A DNA stretch of 64,000 nt from Actinomycetes bacterium (lineage in GTDB: Bacteria > Actinomycetota > Actinomycetes > Actinomycetales > Dermatophilaceae): NCBI GenBank assembly GCA_029778715.1, contig JAKOPT010000089.1, positions 1 to 64,000 of the forward strand. The letters are read 5' to 3'. The stretch's first letter is position 1, and the number at the start of each line of letters is the position of its first letter. The translations under genes were made by a program, and so were the position numbers. Shown piece by piece: positions 21,911 through 54,991 of the stretch. Under the pieces are notes generated by a model. That model saw only the letters and a list, made by a program, of their open reading frames with translations, did not search any database and was not told the origin of the DNA.

Positions 21911-23296
21911 TCAGCTCTGGGTGTCGAAGAACACGTTCTTGGTCTCGGTGAAGGCGTCGAGGGCATCCGGACCGAGTTCGCGCCCGATGCCGCTGGCCTT
22001 GAACCCGCCGAACGGCGTCGAGTAGCGCACCGAGGAGTGGCTGTTGACCGACAGGTTGCCGGCCTCGACGCCGCGGGCCACCCGGATGGCCCGGCCCACG
22101 TCGCGGGTCCAGATCGAACCGGAGAGCCCGTATGCCGTGTCGTTGGCCAGGGCGAGCGCCTCGGCTTCGTCCTCGAAGGGCATGACGGAGACGACCGGCC
22201 CGAAGATCTCCTCACGCCAGGCCCGGTCGTCGGCGCCGCGGGCGAAGAGCACCGTCGGGGGGTACCACCAGCCGGCCCCCTGCGGAGCCGAGCCGCGGAA
22301 CGCGACCTCGGGCGCGGCATACCCGGACTTCTCGGCGTCCTCGACGAACGACCGCACGGTGTCCCGCTGACCGGAGGAGACCAGCGGGCCCATCTCCGTG
22401 GCCTCGTCCTCGGGGTCCCCGACCCGCACCGCGGTGATGGCTTCCTCGAAGCGGGCCATGAAGGCGTCGACGACACTGCGCTGGACGAGGATGCGGCTGC
22501 GGGCACAGCAGTCCTGGCCGGCGTTGTCGAGGAAACTCATCGGGGCGCTGGCCGCGGCCGCCTCGAGGTCGGCGTCGGCGAAGACGATGTTGGCGCTCTT
22601 GCCGCCGAGTTCGAGGGTGACCCGCTTGAGCTGGTCGGCGGCCTTGCGCATGATCCCCTGTCCGACAACGGTAGACCCGGTGAAGCACACCTTGCGGACG
22701 TCGGGGTGGGTGACGAACCGTTCGCCGACGATCGAGCCCTTGCCCGCGAGGATCGTGAACACCCCTTCGGGAATGCCGGCCTCCAGGGCGAGTTCGCCGA
22801 GCCGGAGCGCCGTGAGCGGGGTGAGTTCGGCGGGTTTGAGGACGACGGTGTTGCCGGCGGCCAGGGCCGGGGCGAACCCCCAGCCGGCGATCGGCATCGG
22901 GAAGTTCCACGGGACGATGACCGAGACCACCCCGAGCGGCTCCTTGAAGGTCACGTCCAGGCCGCCGGCCACCGGGATCTGGCGCCCGAAAAGCCGCTCC
23001 GGTGCCGCGCTGTAGTAGCGCAGCACGTTGACGACGTTCCCGGCCTCCCAGCGGGCGTTGCCGATCGTGTGACCGGCGTTGGCGACCTCGAGACGGGCCA
23101 GTTCCTCGGTGTGGGCCTCGACGACGTCGGCGAACCGGCGCAGCAGCATCCCCCGGTCCGCCGGCGTGACCGCCCGCCAGGCCGGGCCCACCGCGACGGC
23201 GCGCGCGATGGCCGCGTCGGTCTCCTCGACGCCGACGAGGTCGATCGTCGTGACGATCTCCTCCGTGGCTGGGTTGATGACGTCATGGGTGGGCAT
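21911..23296 (-). CDS. Aldehyde dehydrogenase (PuuC-like)
   Basis: NAD-dependent aldehyde dehydrogenase of 461 residues, slightly shorter at the N terminus than the usual 480-500. Conserved features are VPWNFPMPIAGWGFAPALAAGNTVVLKPAELTP, FTGSTVVGQ, the general base in TLELGGKSANIVF, the catalytic Cys within NAGQDCCARSRILVQ, and EEIFGPVVSVMPF. It probably oxidises the aldehyde left after amine oxidation of a gamma-glutamylated amine. It is in line with the SDR and PuuD-like genes and is preceded by the repeat array at 23365-23564. Confidence 0.92.
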   Translation of the reverse strand: MPTHDVINPATEEIVTTIDLVGVEETDAAIARAVAVGPAWRAVTPADRGMLLRRFADVVEAHTEELARLEVANAGHTIGNARWEAGNVVNVLRYYSAAPERLFGRQIPVAGGLDVTFKEPLGVVSVIVPWNFPMPIAGWGFAPALAAGNTVVLKPAELTPLTALRLGELALEAGIPEGVFTILAGKGSIVGERFVTHPDVRKVCFTGSTVVGQGIMRKAADQLKRVTLELGGKSANIVFADADLEAAAASAPMSFLDNAGQDCCARSRILVQRSVVDAFMARFEEAITAVRVGDPEDEATEMGPLVSSGQRDTVRSFVEDAEKSGYAAPEVAFRGSAPQGAGWWYPPTVLFARGADDRAWREEIFGPVVSVMPFEDEAEALALANDTAYGLSGSIWTRDVGRAIRVARGVEAGNLSVNSHSSVRYSTPFGGFKASGIGRELGPDALDAFTETKNVFFDTQS

Positions 23297-23364: not shown

Positions 23365-23564
23365 GTCAACAATCCACCTATTGGTCAGTTGTTGACGGGT
23401 CTGGGCGGGCGGCCCTGTCAACAATCCACCTATTGGTCAGTTGTTGACGGGTCTGGGCGGGCGGTCGTGTTAACAATCCACCTATTGGTCAGTTGTTGAC
23501 GGGTCTGGGCGGGCGGGCTAGGGGGTCGATCCGTCAACAATCCACCTATTGGTCGGTTGTTTAC
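23365..23564. repeat. Four copies of a 32-bp palindromic repeat
   Basis: GTCAACAATCCACCTATTGG plus TCAGTTGTTGAC occurs at 23365-23396, 23417-23448, 23469-23500 (GTTAAC start) and 23533-23564 (ends TTTAC). The outer 8 bases are inverted repeats (GTCAACAA/TTGTTGAC) and the centre has CCA ... TGG. The first three spacers are near-identical 20-mers (GGGTCTGGGCGGGCGG...), so the unit is a 52-bp tandem. Further copies are at 28265, 53411 and 53475. It fills the gap between the glutamine synthetase-like and ALDH genes. Confidence 0.92.
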
Positions 23565-23583
23565 GGGGGGTTTGGTCGGTTGG

Positions 23584-24951
23584 TTACAGGCGTTCGAAGC
23601 CGCGGACGAGTTCCCAGTCGGTGACGGCGGCATTGAAGGCGGTCAGTTCGATGTCGGCGGCGTTGACGTAGTGGTCGACCACATCGTCACCGAAGGCGGC
23701 CCGGGCGATCTGCGACCCGGCGAGCAGGTCACGCGCCTGGGCGAGGGTGTGGGGCACGTGCGGGACGTCCGCGGCATACGCATTGCCGACCAACTCCGGT
23801 TCCAACTCCAACTCGTGCTCGATGCCGTAGAGGCCGCCGGCGAGCATGGCCCCGACCGCGAGGTAGGGGTTGACGTCGCCGCCGGGGACCCGGTTCTCCA
23901 TCCGCAGCCCGGACCCGTGGCCGACGACCCGCAGCGCGCAAGTGCGGTTGTCCCGGCCCCAGGCGACGGCCGTCGGCGCGAACGAACCGGGCTGGAAACG
24001 CTTGTAGGAGTTGATGTTCGGGGCGTAGAAGAACGAGAACTCGCGCAGCGTGGCGAGCACGCCGGCGAGGAAGCGGTCGAAGAGAACCGACTGCCCCCCG
24101 GGCCGGTCGCCGTCGGCGAAGACCGCGCTCCCGTCCTGGCCGCGCAGCGACAGGTGGATGTGGCAGGAGTTGCCCTCGCGCTGGTCGTACTTGGCCATGA
24201 AGGTGATCGACTGGCCATGGGCGGCGGCGATCTCCTTGGCGGCGTTCTTGTAAATGACGTGGTTGTCGCAGGTGCGGACCACCTCGTCGTAAAGGAAGGC
24301 GATCTCGTGCTGGCCGAGGTTGCACTCGCCCTTGGCCGACTCGACGGTGAGCCCGGCGCGATACATCTCGTTGCGGATGTCGCGCAGCAGCGGCTCGACC
24401 CGCGTCCCGCCGAGGATCGAGTAGTCGACGTTGTAGCGGTTGGCGCCGGTGAGCCCGCGATAGCGCGCATCCCAGGCCTGCTCGTAGGACTCTTCGAAGA
24501 CGATGAACTCCAATTCGGTCCCCGCGAGCGCCACGAACCCCAGATCCGCGGCCCGGGCCACCTGAGCCTTGAGGAAGTCCCGGGGCGAAGGCCGCACGGG
24601 CCCCGACCCGTCCAGCCAGGCCAGGTCGCATTGGATGGTCGCCGAGTTGGCCTGTCCGGGGGTGCGGCGCAGCGTGTCGAGATCGAGCACAAACTCGAAG
24701 TCCCCATACCCCTTCTCCCACGACGACATCTCATAGCCGCCGACGGTGTTCATCTCGACGTCGACGGCGAGCAGATAGTTGCACCCCTCGGTGCCGTGGG
24801 CGAGCACCTGGTCGAGGAAGAACTGGCCGTGCAGCCGTTTGCCTTGCAGTCGGCCCTGCATGTCGGTGAAGGCCACGATGACGGTGTCGATCTCGCCCGA
24901 GGTGATCTCGGTGCGCAACTGCTCCAGGGTCAGCGTGGGGGCTGGGCTCAT
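23584..24951 (-). CDS. Glutamine synthetase-like gamma-glutamyl ligase (PuuA/GlnA3 type)
   Basis: GS-fold ATP-dependent ligase of 455 residues. A short N-terminal beta-grasp (residues 9-100, with DMQGRLQGKRLHG) precedes the catalytic barrel, with metal and substrate motifs GTELEFIVFEE, ESAKGECNLGQHEIAF, GNSCHIHLSLRGQDG (Asn-His-His) and NSYKRFQPGSFAPTAVAWGRDNR. RMENRVPGGDVNPYLAVGAML is the C-terminal signature. No adenylylation-site Tyr block of GlnA is visible, and the context is catabolic. It probably gamma-glutamylates an amine rather than ammonia. The substrate is not determinable from sequence. Confidence 0.88.
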   Translation of the reverse strand: MSPAPTLTLEQLRTEITSGEIDTVIVAFTDMQGRLQGKRLHGQFFLDQVLAHGTEGCNYLLAVDVEMNTVGGYEMSSWEKGYGDFEFVLDLDTLRRTPGQANSATIQCDLAWLDGSGPVRPSPRDFLKAQVARAADLGFVALAGTELEFIVFEESYEQAWDARYRGLTGANRYNVDYSILGGTRVEPLLRDIRNEMYRAGLTVESAKGECNLGQHEIAFLYDEVVRTCDNHVIYKNAAKEIAAAHGQSITFMAKYDQREGNSCHIHLSLRGQDGSAVFADGDRPGGQSVLFDRFLAGVLATLREFSFFYAPNINSYKRFQPGSFAPTAVAWGRDNRTCALRVVGHGSGLRMENRVPGGDVNPYLAVGAMLAGGLYGIEHELELEPELVGNAYAADVPHVPHTLAQARDLLAGSQIARAAFGDDVVDHYVNAADIELTAFNAAVTDWELVRGFERL

Positions 24952-25794: not shown

Positions 25795-25795
25795 T
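25774..25795. promoter_or_regulatory. Operator 1 for the GntR/FCD regulator
   Basis: AATGGTCC-N6-GAACCATT, an inverted repeat with 8-bp arms and one mismatch, overlaps the regulator start codon (25792-25794). It is identical in both arms and spacing to 31029-31050. AT-rich sites of this kind are unusual at this GC content. Binding by the regulator is inferred from the paired occurrence. Confidence 0.75.
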
Positions 25796-28341
25796 TAGAA
25801 CCGGACTCGCTCGAGGCGCACCCCGTCGGGGTCGTAGGGCGCCCGCAGGCTCACCACGAGCGGCAGCCGCTGCCCGGCGAGGTCGACTTCCCAGTCCCCG
25901 GCACGCACCCACTCGGCGTTGGCCAGCCCCTCCCGCGGCCCGACGAGCGCCAGCCCGACGCTGCACCCGACGGTGGCCCCGTATGCCGCGCTGCTCACCT
26001 GCCCGACCGGCTCACCGTTGCGCAGGACGAGTTCGCCACCCCAGAGGTATGCCGCGGGGTCACCGACCGTGAACGACACGACCCGTCGCCGGGGGCCGCT
26101 GGCCCGCACGCGCTCGGCCGCCTCCTGCCCGAGGAAGTCGGCCTGCTCGCCCCGGTCGAGGACGAACCCGAGCCCGGCCTCGATCGGACCCACCTCGGGG
26201 GTCAGTTCGCGCCCGAAGGCTCGGTAGCCCTTTTCGAGGCGCAGCGCTTCCAGGGCGTAGTAGCCGGCCGGCGCGATGCCGAGGTCTTCCCCGGAGGCGA
26301 ACAGGTCGGCATACACCCCGGCGGCCTGGTCGACCGGGACGTACAACTCCCAGCCGAGTTCGCCGACATAGGTGATCCGGGTGGCGCGCACGGTCGCCCG
26401 GCCCAGGTCGATCTCCGCGCTGTAGCCGAACGGGAAGCGCTCGTCCAGGTCGGCCCGGGTCAGCCGGGACAGGAGGGTGCGCGAGTTCGGACCCATGACG
26501 CCGAACACGGCATACCCGCTGGTCACGTCGACGAAACTCACGGGTGCGGCCTCGTCGGGCACGTTTCGGCGCAGCCAGTCGAGGTCGCGGACGGTCGTAG
26601 CGGCGCTGCTCACGACGAGGAACTGATCCTGGGCCAGGCGGGTCACGGTGACGTCGGCTTCATAGGTGCCGCGGGCGTTGAGCCACGCGGTGTAGACCGC
26701 CCACCCGTCCGGGCCGTCGATGTCGGCGCTGCAAACCCACTGGAGGGTCTCGAGCGCACCAGGGCCGGTGACGAGGTACTTCGAGAACGACGTCTGGTCG
26801 AAGACGGCGACGGCGCCGCGGCATACCTCTTGTTCGGCGCGCGCCCAGGCGACCCACTCGGGGGTGTCCCACGAGTAGGAGAGGCGCGGCTCCACCCCGG
26901 CGGGAGCGAAGACGTTGGCCCGCTCCCACCCGTTGCGCGACCCCATAACCGCGCCCTGCGCCCGCAGCGTGTCGTGGACCGGGGAGCGGCGCTGCGGGCG
27001 ACCCGACTCGAACTCGCGGTTGGGCCAGGGGATCGCATAGTGCAGGCCGAGGACCTCCCCGACCCGCGAGCGCAACCACGCTGGGTTGGCCTGGAGCCGG
27101 GAGAAGCGCCGGATATCGACGGCGGCGAGGTCCATCGTCGGTTCGCCCTCGACGATCCATTCGGCAAGGGCCCGGCCGGCGCCACCGGCGGAGGCGATCC
27201 CCACCGAGTTGAAACCGGCTGCGACGTAGAAGTTGTCGAGTTCGGGGGCCAGCCCGAGGATGAACTGGTTGTCCGGGGTGAAACTCTCCGGGCCGTTGTA
27301 GAACTTGCGGATCCCGACCTCGGCGAGCACGGGGAGCCGGTGGACGGCGCTGTCCATGAGGATCTCGAAGTGCTCCCAGTCCTCGTCGAGCAACTGGAAC
27401 TCGAAGGGATGGGGAATGGCATCGGGGGCGACCCACGGCTTGGCCTCGGGCTCGAAGCCACCGACGAGCAGCCCGCCGACCTCCTCCTTCACATAGGTGT
27501 AGCCGTCCGGGTCGCGCAGCACCGGCAGGTCGGGGTGGACGCCCTCGATCTGGTCGGTCACGACGTAGAAGTGCTCGGCCGAGTGGAGCGGCACGCTCAC
27601 CCCGACGCTCGCGGCGAGCGCGTTCGCCCACTGGCCGGTGGCGTTGACCACGATCTCGGCCTCGACCTCGCCGTGATCGGTGCGCACGCCGGTGGCGCGG
27701 CGCCGGCCATTGGTCGTGTGCCAGAGCACCTCGGTGACGCGGACCCGTTCGGCGATCCGCACGCCGTGCTGCCGAGCGCCCTTGGCCAGCGAAAGGGTGA
27801 GGTCGGTGGGGTTGGCGCGGCCGTCCCCCGGGAGCCAGATGGCGCCGACCAGGTCGTCGTCGCGGATGAGGGGGTAGCGCTCCTTGGCCTGGGCTGGGGT
27901 GAGGAGTTCGCAGTCGAGGTCGTATGCCGCGGCCGTCGCCACCGTGCGCCGCAACTGGACCATCCGGTCGGGGGTGCGGGCCACGGTCAGCCCCCCGCAG
28001 ACGCGGTATCCGGTGGCCAGCCCGGTTTCGGCTTCCAGGCGCGCGTAGAGCTCGGTGGAGTAGCGCACCAGGCGGGTGCCGGCCTCACTGGCGCGCAACT
28101 GCCCCACGAGGCCGGCGGCGTGCCAGGTGGTGCCGCACGAGAGGCTGCCTTGTTCGAGGAGGAGCACATCGGTCCAGCCGAGGTGGGCCAGGTGGTAGGC
28201 GATCGAGGTGCCGATGACGCCGCCGCCGATGATGACGACGCGCGCCCGGCTGGGCAGGGCGCCGGTGAACAATCCACCTATTGGTCGATTGTTAGCCGCC
28301 GGGGCAGTTCCCGGGTGCGGGGAACCGGTTGCGGTGCTCAT
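25795..28341 (-). CDS. FAD-dependent oxidoreductase fused to GcvT (dimethylglycine/sarcosine dehydrogenase-like)
   Basis: Two-part flavoprotein of 848 residues. The N-terminal DAO domain has the dinucleotide motif VVIIGGGVIGTSIAYHLAHLG (about residues 35-55), SCGTTWHAAGLVGQLR (the region of covalent flavin attachment in relatives), and FYNGPESFTPDNQFILG. From about 430 comes a GcvT folate-type domain: VFDQTSFSKYLVTGPGA, GVMGPNSRTLLSRL, YVGELGWELYVP, EALRLEKGYRAFGRELTP. It probably oxidises an N-methylated or secondary amine and may pass one-carbon units to folate. Residues 17-26 (NNRPIGGLFT) are encoded by a 32-bp genomic repeat. The start overlaps the upstream gene (ATGA). Confidence 0.9.
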   Translation of the reverse strand: MSTATGSPHPGTAPAANNRPIGGLFTGALPSRARVVIIGGGVIGTSIAYHLAHLGWTDVLLLEQGSLSCGTTWHAAGLVGQLRASEAGTRLVRYSTELYARLEAETGLATGYRVCGGLTVARTPDRMVQLRRTVATAAAYDLDCELLTPAQAKERYPLIRDDDLVGAIWLPGDGRANPTDLTLSLAKGARQHGVRIAERVRVTEVLWHTTNGRRRATGVRTDHGEVEAEIVVNATGQWANALAASVGVSVPLHSAEHFYVVTDQIEGVHPDLPVLRDPDGYTYVKEEVGGLLVGGFEPEAKPWVAPDAIPHPFEFQLLDEDWEHFEILMDSAVHRLPVLAEVGIRKFYNGPESFTPDNQFILGLAPELDNFYVAAGFNSVGIASAGGAGRALAEWIVEGEPTMDLAAVDIRRFSRLQANPAWLRSRVGEVLGLHYAIPWPNREFESGRPQRRSPVHDTLRAQGAVMGSRNGWERANVFAPAGVEPRLSYSWDTPEWVAWARAEQEVCRGAVAVFDQTSFSKYLVTGPGALETLQWVCSADIDGPDGWAVYTAWLNARGTYEADVTVTRLAQDQFLVVSSAATTVRDLDWLRRNVPDEAAPVSFVDVTSGYAVFGVMGPNSRTLLSRLTRADLDERFPFGYSAEIDLGRATVRATRITYVGELGWELYVPVDQAAGVYADLFASGEDLGIAPAGYYALEALRLEKGYRAFGRELTPEVGPIEAGLGFVLDRGEQADFLGQEAAERVRASGPRRRVVSFTVGDPAAYLWGGELVLRNGEPVGQVSSAAYGATVGCSVGLALVGPREGLANAEWVRAGDWEVDLAGQRLPLVVSLRAPYDPDGVRLERVRF
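28265..28296. repeat. 32-bp palindromic repeat copy inside a gene
   Basis: GTGAACAATCCACCTATTGG plus TCGATTGTTAGC differs from the consensus at a few arm positions. It lies in the N-terminal coding region of the flavoprotein and is read in frame as NNRPIGGLFT with the codons CGA CCA ATA GGT GGA TTG, all rare here. Flanking codons have normal GC-rich usage, which supports insertion into the gene. Confidence 0.88.
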
Positions 28342-52349: not shown

Positions 52350-53354
52350 TCAGGCGAGGGTGGCCACGAGAATGGCCTTGATCGTGTGCATCCGGTTCTC
52401 GGCCTGCTCGAAGGCGATGTTGTAGTTCGACTCGAACACGTCCTCGGTCACCTCGATGCCGTTGGCCAGGTGCGGGTACTGCGCCGCGATCTGGGCGCCC
52501 ACCTTGGTCTCGCTGTTGTGGAACGCCGGCAGGCAGTGCATGAACTTCACCCGCGGGTTGCCCGCGGCCGCCATCAATTCCGGGGTCACCTGGAAGGGCA
52601 GCAACTCCTCGATGCGCTCGCCCCACGTCTCGATCGGCTCGCCCATGGACACCCACACGTCGGTGTGGACGTAGTCGACACCGCGCACCGCCTCATGCGG
52701 GTCGTCGGTGACGAGGATGCGCGCGCCCGACTCGGCGGCGAACCCCTCGCACATCTGGACCAGTTCGGGTGCCGGCCACAGGTCCTTCGGTGCCCCGATC
52801 CGCACGTCCATGCCCAACTTGGCGCCGACGAGCAGGAGCGAGTTGGCGACGTTGTTGCGCCCGTCGCCGACGAAGGCAAAGGCGATCTCGTGGAGCGGCT
52901 TGGACGTGTGCTCGGTCATGGTGAGCACGTCGGCGAGCATCTGGGTCGGGTGGAACTCGTCGGTGAGCCCGTTGTAGACCGGCACCCCCGCGAACTCCGC
53001 GAGTTCGTCAACGGTGTGCTGGGAGAAGCCGCGGTATTCGATGGCGTCGTACATCCGCCCGAGGACCCGCGCGGTGTCCTTCATCGACTCCTTGTGCCCG
53101 ATCTGGCTGGAGGCCGGGTCGATGTAGGTCACGTGCGCGCCCTGGTCATAGGCGGCCACCTCGAAGGCGCACCGCGTGCGGGTCGAGGTCTTCTCGAAGA
53201 TGAGGGCGATGTTCTTGCCCTTGAGGCGCGGCACCTCGTCGCCGGTGTACTTGGCCCGCTTGAGGTCACGGGAGAGGTCGAGCAGGTAGTGCAGGTCCCG
53301 CTCGGTGTGGTGGACGAGGGAGAGGACGTTGCGGTTGCGGTTGTTGAAGGGCAT
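52350..53354 (-). CDS. arcB: Ornithine carbamoyltransferase, catabolic
   Basis: Splits citrulline with phosphate into ornithine and carbamoyl phosphate, 334 residues. The carbamoyl-phosphate site is [41 protein letters not shown] and [12 protein letters not shown] bind substrates, and FMHCLPAFH carries the catalytic Cys. The anabolic ArgF is similar in sequence; the catabolic assignment rests on its place between arcA and arcC. Confidence 0.95.
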
Positions 53355-53410: not shown

Positions 53411-53506
53411 GTCAACAATCCACCTATTGGTCGAATGTTGACGGCGGGGTGAGGGCTGGGACCGGGCCGGCCGTGTCAACAATCCACCTATTGGTCGAAT
53501 GTTGAC
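53411..53506. repeat. Two more copies of the 32-bp palindromic repeat
   Basis: GTCAACAATCCACCTATTGG plus TCGAATGTTGAC occurs at 53411-53442 and 53475-53506, between the arcB start and the arcA stop. The inverted arms are slightly weakened (AATGTTGAC). They are followed by a hairpin in which GCCGTGGGCTC and GAGCCCACGGC pair (about 53540-53627), probably the end of arcA. Confidence 0.9.
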
Positions 53507-53636
53507 GGCCGGCTGGCTTGGGTCAGGGGGACGTGGTCGGATGCCGTGGGCTCTCGGATGCCGTGGGCTCTCGTATGCCGCGCCGCCGCCGGTTGGCCGG
53601 CCCCGGGGCGGCGAGCCCACGGCATACGGAAAAACC

Positions 53637-54947
53637 TCAGGTGTAGAGCGGGTCACGCACGATGGGGCAACTCATGCAGCGGCCACCGCCACGGCCGCGG
53701 CCGAGTTCGGAGGCCATGATGGTGATGACCTCGATGCCGGCCTTGCGCAGCTGGGTGTTGGTGTGGGTGTTGCGGTCGTAGCCGACGACGACGCCGTCGT
53801 CGAGGGCGAGCACGTTGTTGCCGTCGTCCCATTGCTCGCGCTCGGCGGCATACGAGTCCCCGGCGGTCCACACGGTGTTGAGTTTGACGCCGACGGCTTC
53901 ACTGACCGAGTCGACGAGCGACTTTCCGGTGGGGCGCAGGTCGAGACCGTCTGGGGCCGACTCATCCGGGCGCAGCACGAAGGTGACCGTTTCGGAGACG
54001 ACCGGCCGATAGGCGGTGACGACGTCGTGGGAGCAGAACGTGAACACCGTGTCGAGGTGCATCGCCGAACGTTTGCGCGGCAGGGCGGCGATGAGGATCT
54101 GCTCGGCGGCCCCGGCGAGGAAGAGTTCCTGGGCCAGTTGCGAAATGGCCTGGTGGGAGGTGCGTTCGCTCATGCCGACGAGGAGCACGCCCTTCTTCAG
54201 CGGCATGACGTCGCCGCCCTCGATGCTCGTCTGGCCCTTTTCGAAGCCCTGGATCGGCATCCCGAGTTCGTCGTAGTCGCCGATCCAGATGGGGAAGTCG
54301 AAGGCAGTGAACCGGGGGTGGAACTTGTAGACCGCGGACGTGAGGAGGGTTTCCTGGCGGCGGGCCGACCAGTACATCGGGTTCTGCATCACCCCGTTGA
54401 AGACCCACGCGCTGGAGTCGCGGGAGAACTGGGTGTTGGGCAGCGGCGGGAGGATGAAACCGGGGTCGGCGAGATTGTCGCGCAGCGCGGCAAGGAAGGA
54501 CCCGGCGGTCTCGGCGGGGACGTCGTCGTAGGTGACCCCGCCGATGAGGAACTCGGCGAGCTTTTCGGGGACCAGGCTTTCCATCCAGGCCCGGGTCTCG
54601 CCCATGAGACCCAGACCGACCCGGTGCGGGGAGATGCGCCGGTCGAGGATCCAGTCGCGGGCGTTGGGGTCGGCCACCACTTCGGCGAGGAGTTGGTGCA
54701 GTTCGAGGACCTCGATGTCGCGGTCGTGCATCTTCGCGGCGAAGTCGAAGTGGTCGCGCTTGGCTTGGGCGACCCAGAGGACGTCGTCGAAGAGGAGTTC
54801 GTCCATGTTGCCGGGGGTGAGGCGCTCGTGGGCCAGACCGGGGGAACAGACGAGGACCGTTCGCAGGCGGCCGGCCTCGCTCCACACACCGGGGGCGGGC
54901 AAGGCGGGGGTGATGGTGGCGTCGTGCGCCGAGTTCGAGGTGGTCAC
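53637..54947 (-). CDS. arcA: Arginine deiminase
   Basis: Converts arginine to citrulline and ammonia, 436 residues from the chosen start. Catalytic elements are visible: [54 protein letters not shown] (His-X-Asp) and the C-terminal nucleophile in [17 protein letters not shown]. The GTG at 54947 is preferred because AGAAGG lies about 12 bases upstream; a GTG at 54956 is the alternative. The N-terminal conserved block starts about residue 17. It lies 45 bases downstream of the arcD-like gene. Confidence 0.95.
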
Positions 54948-54991
54948 GATGACCACGTCCCTTCTGGGGTTGAGCGTGGGTGAGGTGCGGA

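Follow-up and report, generated by a model that had tools for sequence, protein, structure and literature searches.

A dyad-symmetric DNA site of about 34 bp has spread, among the genomes searched, within one species only. We think, with modest confidence, that this site has multiplied there in the fashion of REP elements and is read as duplex DNA by a putative oligomeric protein that recognises its sequence; both this protein and its role are proposals, set out below together with what was seen of how copies spread. The window, i.e. the whole stretch of 64,000 nucleotides analysed, carries seven copies, listed here with the genes around them.

23365..23396, plus strand: element copy 1 of the first array, 2 of 32 bases off the family consensus
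23417..23448, plus strand: element copy 2 of the first array, 52 bp centre-to-centre from copy 1 (about five helical turns)
23469..23500, plus strand: element copy 3 of the first array, 52 bp from copy 2
23533..23564, plus strand: element copy 4 of the first array, 64 bp from copy 3 (about six helical turns)
23574..23587, minus strand: possible half-site adjoining copy 4, 14 bp with 1 mismatch to GTNNACAAYCSACC, which may be chance
28265..28296, plus strand: lone element copy, in frame in the 5' coding part of a minus-strand oxidoreductase gene
53411..53442, plus strand: copy 1 of a pair in the gap that separates the arginine deiminase gene from the ornithine carbamoyltransferase gene
53475..53506, plus strand: copy 2 of the pair, in the same intergenic gap, 64 bp from copy 1
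21911..23296, minus strand: aldehyde dehydrogenase gene, downstream of the first array (context)
23584..24951, minus strand: glutamine-synthetase-like gene, its end 19 bp from the first array (context)
25795..28341, minus strand: FAD-dependent oxidoreductase/GcvT-type protein, whose N-terminal extension includes the 28265 element
52350..53354, minus strand: ornithine carbamoyltransferase gene (context)
53637..54956, minus strand: arginine deiminase gene (context)

A sequence-only reading of the window had reported these seven copies, four in tandem from 23365, one at 28265 and two within 53411-53506, and all were found there, each with zero or one mismatch to a 20-mer of the element; 100 dinucleotide shuffles of the window yielded none. 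As that reading had said, the copies are AT-rich unlike their surroundings, averaging 45% GC against 70% for the DNA read. Their consensus is the near-palindrome of 32 bp with a flanking pyrimidine and purine, Y-GTNNACAAYCCACCTATTGGTCGRWTGTNNAC-R. To call the centre conserved and unpaired, as was done before, is too simple: an inner dyad, ACC-N4-GGT, is found there, coaxial with the outer arms GTNNACAA/TTGTNNAC, and the element folds accordingly. Both ends read GT...AC and pair with each other, with positions -1 and +1 being merely Y and R. A possible resemblance of the arm TTGTNNAC to a DnaA box we set aside because the congeners lack the site. Half-sites lying outside full elements show no excess over those of relatives (24 in 1.29 Mb, compared with 6 in 0.42 Mb of the congener G001 and 18 in 0.82 Mb of the congener G002). 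Beside the 53411 pair, at 53537-53628, a 17-bp tandem repeat (TCGGATGCCGTGGGCTC) with a nearby inverted copy forms a separate potential hairpin.

In the source genome (G000; 3.08 Mb in 162 contigs, 82.7% complete, 2.34% contamination), the genome-wide search that the earlier reading had proposed returned 196 sites matching AACA-N4-ACC-N4-GGT-N4-TGTT with at most two mismatches, and none matching the reversed pattern. A stricter oriented pattern, with at most one mismatch, gave 141 sites in this genome and none in 57 related genomes, G001 and G002 among them; it had no exact match in public genome and viral collections, from which the source genome itself was possibly excluded. In the congeners (420 kb of G001, 816 kb of G002) no site lay within 11 mismatches of the element consensus, and phage and plasmid records gave weak partial matches at best (E >= 3). 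The sequence-only reading had named as fatal to itself a lack of further copies in the genome and of relatives elsewhere; copies are many in the source genome, and none was found elsewhere in the collections searched.

A looser 12-base pattern, run on 186 genomes of the family, matched 159 sites in the source genome, exactly one in 24 of the 185 others and none in the rest, with its reversed control matching in 2 of the 186. We rejected the single-match genomes as carriers of the element: 14 of the 24 matches are a different palindrome, ACATACAACC-N4-GGTTGTATGT, probably an operator, which at loci L188 and L189 (around position 1500) stands beside an ArsR-like gene with an SRPBCC-like gene adjoining, both named by eye from their translations. 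The best titled relatives of one source-genome protein, at 80-82% identity, are from Knoellia, Phycicoccus and Pedococcus, which are members of the Intrasporangiaceae/Dermatophilaceae, the group to which the source species probably belongs. In the literature, as represented by titles and the beginnings of abstracts and by few subscription papers, we met no report of the element or of helically phased palindromic repeats.

To describe the family we read 1,294,590 bases (42%) of the source genome, comprising five large contigs whole or nearly so and, elsewhere, mostly pieces around hits, the small contigs being chosen for element hits. This sample holds 151 copies with at most 10 mismatches to the consensus and none of the reversed consensus, falling into 65 clusters (18 single copies, 23 pairs, 15 triples, 4 fours, 4 fives and 1 six). 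The same 32-mer recurs in up to 11 clusters, linked variants occur at several loci, and on two contigs the element comes with the same short spacer. Counted per 20 kb, clusters scatter in a Poisson-like way (mean 0.77, variance 0.75, 43 bins), and we therefore dropped the idea of a depletion around the origin, which had been seen on three contigs. As a description, the earlier term REP-like holds well for a short, mostly intergenic palindrome present in high copy, with the same variants at several loci.

With genes called by a simple codon-usage script, so that gene edges are approximate, we placed 46 of the 65 clusters in gaps between genes and 14 within a gene, while 4 overlap a gene in part and 1 sits at a contig edge; the 14 in-gene clusters comprise 38 copies, though 81% of the sequence is coding. 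Of the 46 intergenic clusters, a count that omits the overlapping, contig-edge and in-gene clusters, 30 sit in co-directional gaps (141 kb in all), 12 in convergent gaps (26 kb) and 4 in divergent gaps (49 kb), a distribution with chi-square p = 0.003. Promoter control by the element is unlikely because divergent gaps are short of copies. The lone copy at 28265 is counted among the 30 co-directional clusters, although the comparison with G001 places it in coding sequence. Within the oxidoreductase frame 25795-28341 it encodes NNRPIGGLF; the frame's start codon, at 28341, and the stop codon of the upstream kinase frame overlap, but a later start may apply. The claim that the window copies are in intergenic or 5' positions needs the correction that this copy is not intergenic and is inside the 5' coding part of its gene.

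All window copies do fall in amine or arginine catabolic operons, as had been noted, and elsewhere many stand beside unrelated genes. Beyond the window, where the annotation of neighbours covers fewer than half of the 65 clusters, copies are found within or next to genes encoding a peptide release factor, trigger factor, SURF1, a TsaD-domain protein, an NADH dehydrogenase subunit, a biotin-dependent carboxylase and a helicase. The proposed tie to nitrogen catabolism is, on this evidence, an accident of the window.

Relatives show what these places look like when the element is missing. For 14 of the 65 clusters we located both flanks within the 420 kb of G001; in 10 of these cases the source genome has the longer gap, and in the other 4 G001 has it, filled with other DNA in which there is no element. 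The 23365 array occupies a gap of 300 bp where G001 has 24 bp, the operon matching that of the window is free of the element in G001-G003, and the oxidoreductase of G001 and G003 has the same protein start with the stretch corresponding to the 28265 element (the N-terminal extension) missing. Element-free matching sites exist, then, in relatives, at an intergenic identity too low for exact junctions, such as a target-site duplication, to be read. In three of four in-gene cases compared with G001 the copies appear as in-frame extra loops or linkers (3 x 21 aa in the TsaD-domain protein, 5 x 14 aa in an ABC transporter, 3 x 21 aa in the helicase). The fourth is a MoaC/MoCF frame that is open in the source genome and carries a stop and a frame change in G001, and which may be a fusion or a calling error; there (L087:17278-18522) MoaC and MoCF_biosynth domains share one open frame whose linker holds a symmetric element copy. 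All 24 in-gene spacings are multiples of three. The same script gives a coding density of 81% for the source genome, 89% for the G001 sample and 83% for the G002 sample, the last cut into 20-kb pieces.

The pattern of base conservation speaks to how the site is recognised. Variability is mirrored between the left and right halves (entropy correlation 0.79, permutation p ~0.002), and constraint reaches position -1 (C or T in 130 of 151 copies) and position +1 (G or A in 138 of 151). Mismatches between the arms are frequent: of the 151 copies, 138 have C.C at 11/22, 66 have C.A at 9/24 and 41 have A.A at 8/25. The polarity of the family is fixed, with C11 opposite C22 and a TATT core. Arm covariation, which the sequence-only reading had suggested looking for, is confined to the mirror positions 3/30 and 4/29: on 88 unique sequences their coupling was reached by 81 and 142 of 2000 permutations, respectively, and it is stronger on cluster majorities (p = 0.0004 and 0.004; z 5.3 and 5.6). 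This coupling counts for a hairpin. The unpaired combinations 3/4, 23/24, 4/9, 29/30 and 11/15 are more strongly coupled than the mirror pairs, so that descent accounts for at least part of the coupling, yet others, e.g. 3/29, are weaker. By RNA folding, five window sequences reach -12.4 to -15.9 kcal/mol and one symmetric copy -23.8, and six single copies fold better than their shuffles (z -3.6 to -7.4). Terminator prediction at the first array, the sole array scanned, gave none, and Rfam reported two tRNAs and nothing else on the window. On balance, the copies resemble sites that a protein binds in duplex DNA more than they resemble hairpins.

Many arrays arose by local duplication of the element together with its spacer, which allows the divergence of the two to be compared. 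In 52 same-strand neighbour pairs, at least 40 bp apart and with spacers that could be aligned with no more than 35% difference, we counted 176 differences over 1718 spacer positions (10.2%) and 61 over 1664 positions of the whole element, with the better of two flanking spacers being used, a choice biased towards low spacer divergence. Constrained positions of the element differ at 18 of 1196 (1.5%) and free positions at 43 of 468 (9.2%), the constrained positions having been taken from the same data. Defining them from other clusters only removes that circularity: the 33 intergenic pairs then show 122/1111 (11.0%) in spacers compared with 37/1056 (3.5%) in whole elements (p = 1e-11), and the 19 in-gene pairs 8.9% compared with 3.9% (p = 4e-4). 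Conversion of the whole element fails as an explanation because free positions diverge as fast as spacers.

Neighbouring copies are also in helical phase. Scanning periods of 4-30 bp over centre-to-centre distances of neighbours outside the in-gene class, with controls jittered by up to 8 bp, we obtained a best period of 10.5 bp when each cluster contributed a single spacing (R = 0.66, n = 36) and a peak at 10.65 bp when it contributed all its distinct spacings (R = 0.65, n = 44), neither equalled by any of 5000 jittered sets. Spacings fall within a quarter turn of whole turns in 32 of 36 cases; removing one of two arrays with a common spacer leaves R at 0.66, and restriction to the 28 unique spacing values gives R = 0.52, equalled by none of 20000 controls. 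The signal is present in inverted neighbours (R = 0.86, n = 8; 0.84, n = 7, after removal of a related array), in same-strand pairs in which no homologous spacer was detected (R = 0.68, n = 21), in pairs with homologous spacers (R = 0.55, n = 17), and in the inverted pairs pooled with pairs in which no duplicated spacer was detected (n = 29, R = 0.71); the spacer comparison was ungapped, so that some of the 21 pairs may be old duplications, and a cluster may count repeatedly. In-gene spacings are phased as well (n = 14, R = 0.75), with 42, 63 and 84 bp fitting both frame and phase; 42 bp is a common spacing in the arrays.

Same-face spacing and base-specific dyads together suggest cooperative binding of an oligomeric protein. 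Such a protein would recognise the element sequence-specifically in double-stranded form and would bind neighbouring copies cooperatively on one face of the helix. Arrays may be kept through some effect that occupied arrays have, or it may be that only intact, in-phase copies propagate. At a guess from location, with convergent gaps preferred and divergent (promoter) gaps short of copies, the likeliest role would be that of a transcription roadblock or a local chromosome organiser rather than promoter control. A bolder form of this proposal, which we hold to be somewhat less likely than not, is that of a chromosome-wide protein-DNA array system born in one species: a protein, host or captured, and its 34-bp site would have spread together to at least 65 arrays and single sites, with same-face spacing actively kept, serving as dispersed roadblocks or chromosome organisers and tolerated in housekeeping genes as in-frame loops. 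Against a protein array stands the fixed polarity, which a purely symmetric binder does not need, though copies of recent shared origin could have it too. Nor is location specific to a protein array, because REPs elsewhere share the preference for co-directional and convergent gaps (PMC3733652).

We searched the source genome for an enzyme or a protein that might go with the element. The earlier suggestion of mobilisation by a RAYT finds no footing: the element lacks the unpaired terminal GTAG/CGTC tag, and the Y1/RAYT family (PF01797), one of the two transposase-type families searched, with PF00589, has 0 matches in this genome, 82.7% complete, in a search that was positive for 5 of 14 control genomes. 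As for a MITE with a partner transposon, three half-site pairs lie 0.5-2.4 kb apart in the 1.29 of 3.08 Mb read, none recognisable as terminal repeats around a gene. Eight intervals have copies on both sides and five of them hold a called gene, namely those for the release factor, trigger factor, SURF1, a Suc_Fer-like protein and a protein with a sub-threshold match to REase_MTES_1575. This last gene (L104:17990-18808), whose match to the nuclease-like domain is just below threshold, is flanked by four copies on one strand and one on the other, a position that could be chance or could mark a candidate partner. No regulator that might be an autoregulated binding protein was recognised by eye in the nearest genes of six array sites, all four divergent ones included. 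An extra ParB was rejected as binder, as a single ParB domain was found in the genome, of a kind also present in the relatives (one each in G002 and G003). Tyrosine recombinase domains number four, and the three loci of 2.8-3.5 kb checked, covering three domains and part of the fourth, contain no element copy; two of the domains are adjacent on a 3.5 kb contig (G000:C11; L147), possibly a repeated mobile unit.

Other explanations have to account for the same observations. The one we weigh most seriously, though we consider it unlikely, is a selfish REP- or MITE-like element that brings the host no gain and relies for its movement on a transposase or recombinase acting in trans and so far unrecognised; constraint and phasing would then reflect enzyme recognition and target capture beside an existing copy. 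Relatives lacking the element at matching places, identical 32-mers in up to 11 clusters with linked variants, in-frame copies inside genes and the Poisson scatter of clusters would all suit this reading. It is countered by the failure to find a Y1 transposase in the 82.7% complete genome, by the lack, within the 1.29 Mb read, of any two half-sites that enclose a gene in the manner of terminal repeats, and by elements diverging less than spacers after local duplication, which is unexpected for dead copies unless only intact copies duplicate. A hairpin acting in RNA or single-stranded DNA, be it an mRNA stabiliser, a terminator or a replication structure, appears improbable to us. Pairing is often broken at 8/25, 9/24 and 11/22, the unpaired neighbours 3/4, 23/24 and 4/9 outdo the mirror pairs in coupling, no terminator is predicted at the first array, and helical phasing would have no obvious meaning for RNA; in its favour are the better-than-shuffled folding of six single copies, the convergent and co-directional location and the mirror coupling at 3/30 and 4/29. 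The regulatory RNA hairpin that the sequence-only reading had offered as an option is weakened by the common arm mismatches and the lack of a predicted terminator at the first array, and keeps the support of that coupling.

It would take much to persuade us of an assembly or binning artefact: the assembly is indeed fragmented, incomplete and slightly contaminated (162 contigs, 82.7%, 2.34%), but copies occur on many contigs, the largest read included, with differing sequences and flanks, reading frames are kept in genes, and flanking genes align to relatives. Hardly credible at all is an operator for nitrogen-catabolism genes, e.g. of the adjacent GntR-type regulator. The window copies do adjoin amine and arginine genes and a GntR-type gene, but some 200 copies across the genome, many by unrelated genes, already contradict it, the matching operon in G001-G003 has no element, and divergent gaps are under-represented.

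Other repeats came to light in the same genome. The octamer CGGCATAC (GTATGCCG) occurs 4205 times, compared with 123 for its reversed pattern, and 96 times in the window (52 + 44), with balanced strands; there are 2410 and 2614 copies in the two congeners, many of 33 further family genomes searched have strongly raised counts, and none of 22 genomes from other families of the order has more than 167. Orientation alternates in 1243 of 1969 successive pairs in the 1.29 Mb, and among one-mismatch variants only CGGCATCC is common (320 vs 1991). Going by these counts, the octamer looks like a DNA-uptake-type or other recognition word of the family, for which titles and the opening lines of abstracts contained no report, though two papers contain its letters. 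Three further palindromic repeat families, beginning GATTCGAGGTAAAAACGC, GGTGGGAAAGGGGCACTTCGCACCCC and CGTACTTTCGAC, are present in the source genome (e.g. C105:107181, C157:57455, C157:250845); inner stems vary in the CGTACTTTCGAC family, which has a relative, CGTCTACTTTCGACTGT, in the congener G001 (G001:C1:28635).

Short palindromic repeats are usually accounted for as RAYT-driven hairpins, or not at all. Described here is a family in a genome where no RAYT was found, confined to one species among those searched and with a clear 10.5-bp spacing signal. The question whether such repeats persist for the sake of a protein binding them in duplex form thereby becomes testable, and both the phasing test and the comparison of element with spacer divergence can be applied to any repeat family that has arrays.

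We term the element REP-like, rather than a member of the REPs, because the tag is missing and no RAYT was found. GTAG- and CGTC-tagged REP elements form species-specific families with grouped copies, some inside ORFs, and the CGTC class has no dedicated transposase (PMC3733652). The element shares with REPs a short palindrome in high copy, a mostly intergenic place with co-directional and convergent gaps, intragenic copies and grouping; at 32-34 bp and 196 sites it is within the 20-40 bp, high-copy, mostly intergenic description of a REP by size and number. GTAG-tagged REPs carry an unpaired terminal tag, whereas the ends of the element pair and bear no such tag, and RAYT-mobilised REPs have a Y1/RAYT in the genome, whereas PF01797 was not found in this one. 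The element does not fit the CGTC-tagged form either, with its unpaired CGTC-type head, CCA-type tail, 8-9 bp stem and 4-5 bp loop: C often precedes GTC in the element, but this GTC is inside the arm and its third base is variable (C in 82 of 149 copies). Compared with tagged REPs, the element is conserved at most bases, the centre included, and its arrays are helically phased. REP-like sequences lacking terminal motifs are described for M. tuberculosis (PMC3733652), so an actinobacterial host is in itself not new. Rickettsia palindromic elements, according to the same paper, occur in frame in protein-coding genes, sometimes several per gene (PMC3733652). In-frame insertion relative to homologues is found here too (TsaD-domain protein, ABC transporter, helicase, oxidoreductase N-terminus), a likeness of location, and unlike the Rickettsia elements ours is mostly intergenic.

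Mycobacteriophage stoperators are many dispersed copies of a protein-binding site (PMC9283540). They are asymmetric, are bound by a monomeric repressor and belong to a phage genome, whereas the element is a dyad, forms arrays, is chromosomal and has a putative binder. There is also a possible likeness of action, since blocking transcription through a bound protein is among the roles suggested for the element.

The partition site sopC of plasmid F consists of tandem palindromic binding sites about four turns apart. The element resembles it in being a palindromic array with about four-turn spacing, 42 bp being frequent; sopC is a single plasmid locus, compared with 65 chromosomal clusters read here. 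As far as its letters and spacings can tell, the element has two features of a cooperative binding-site array, a base-specific dyad and neighbouring copies in helical phase.
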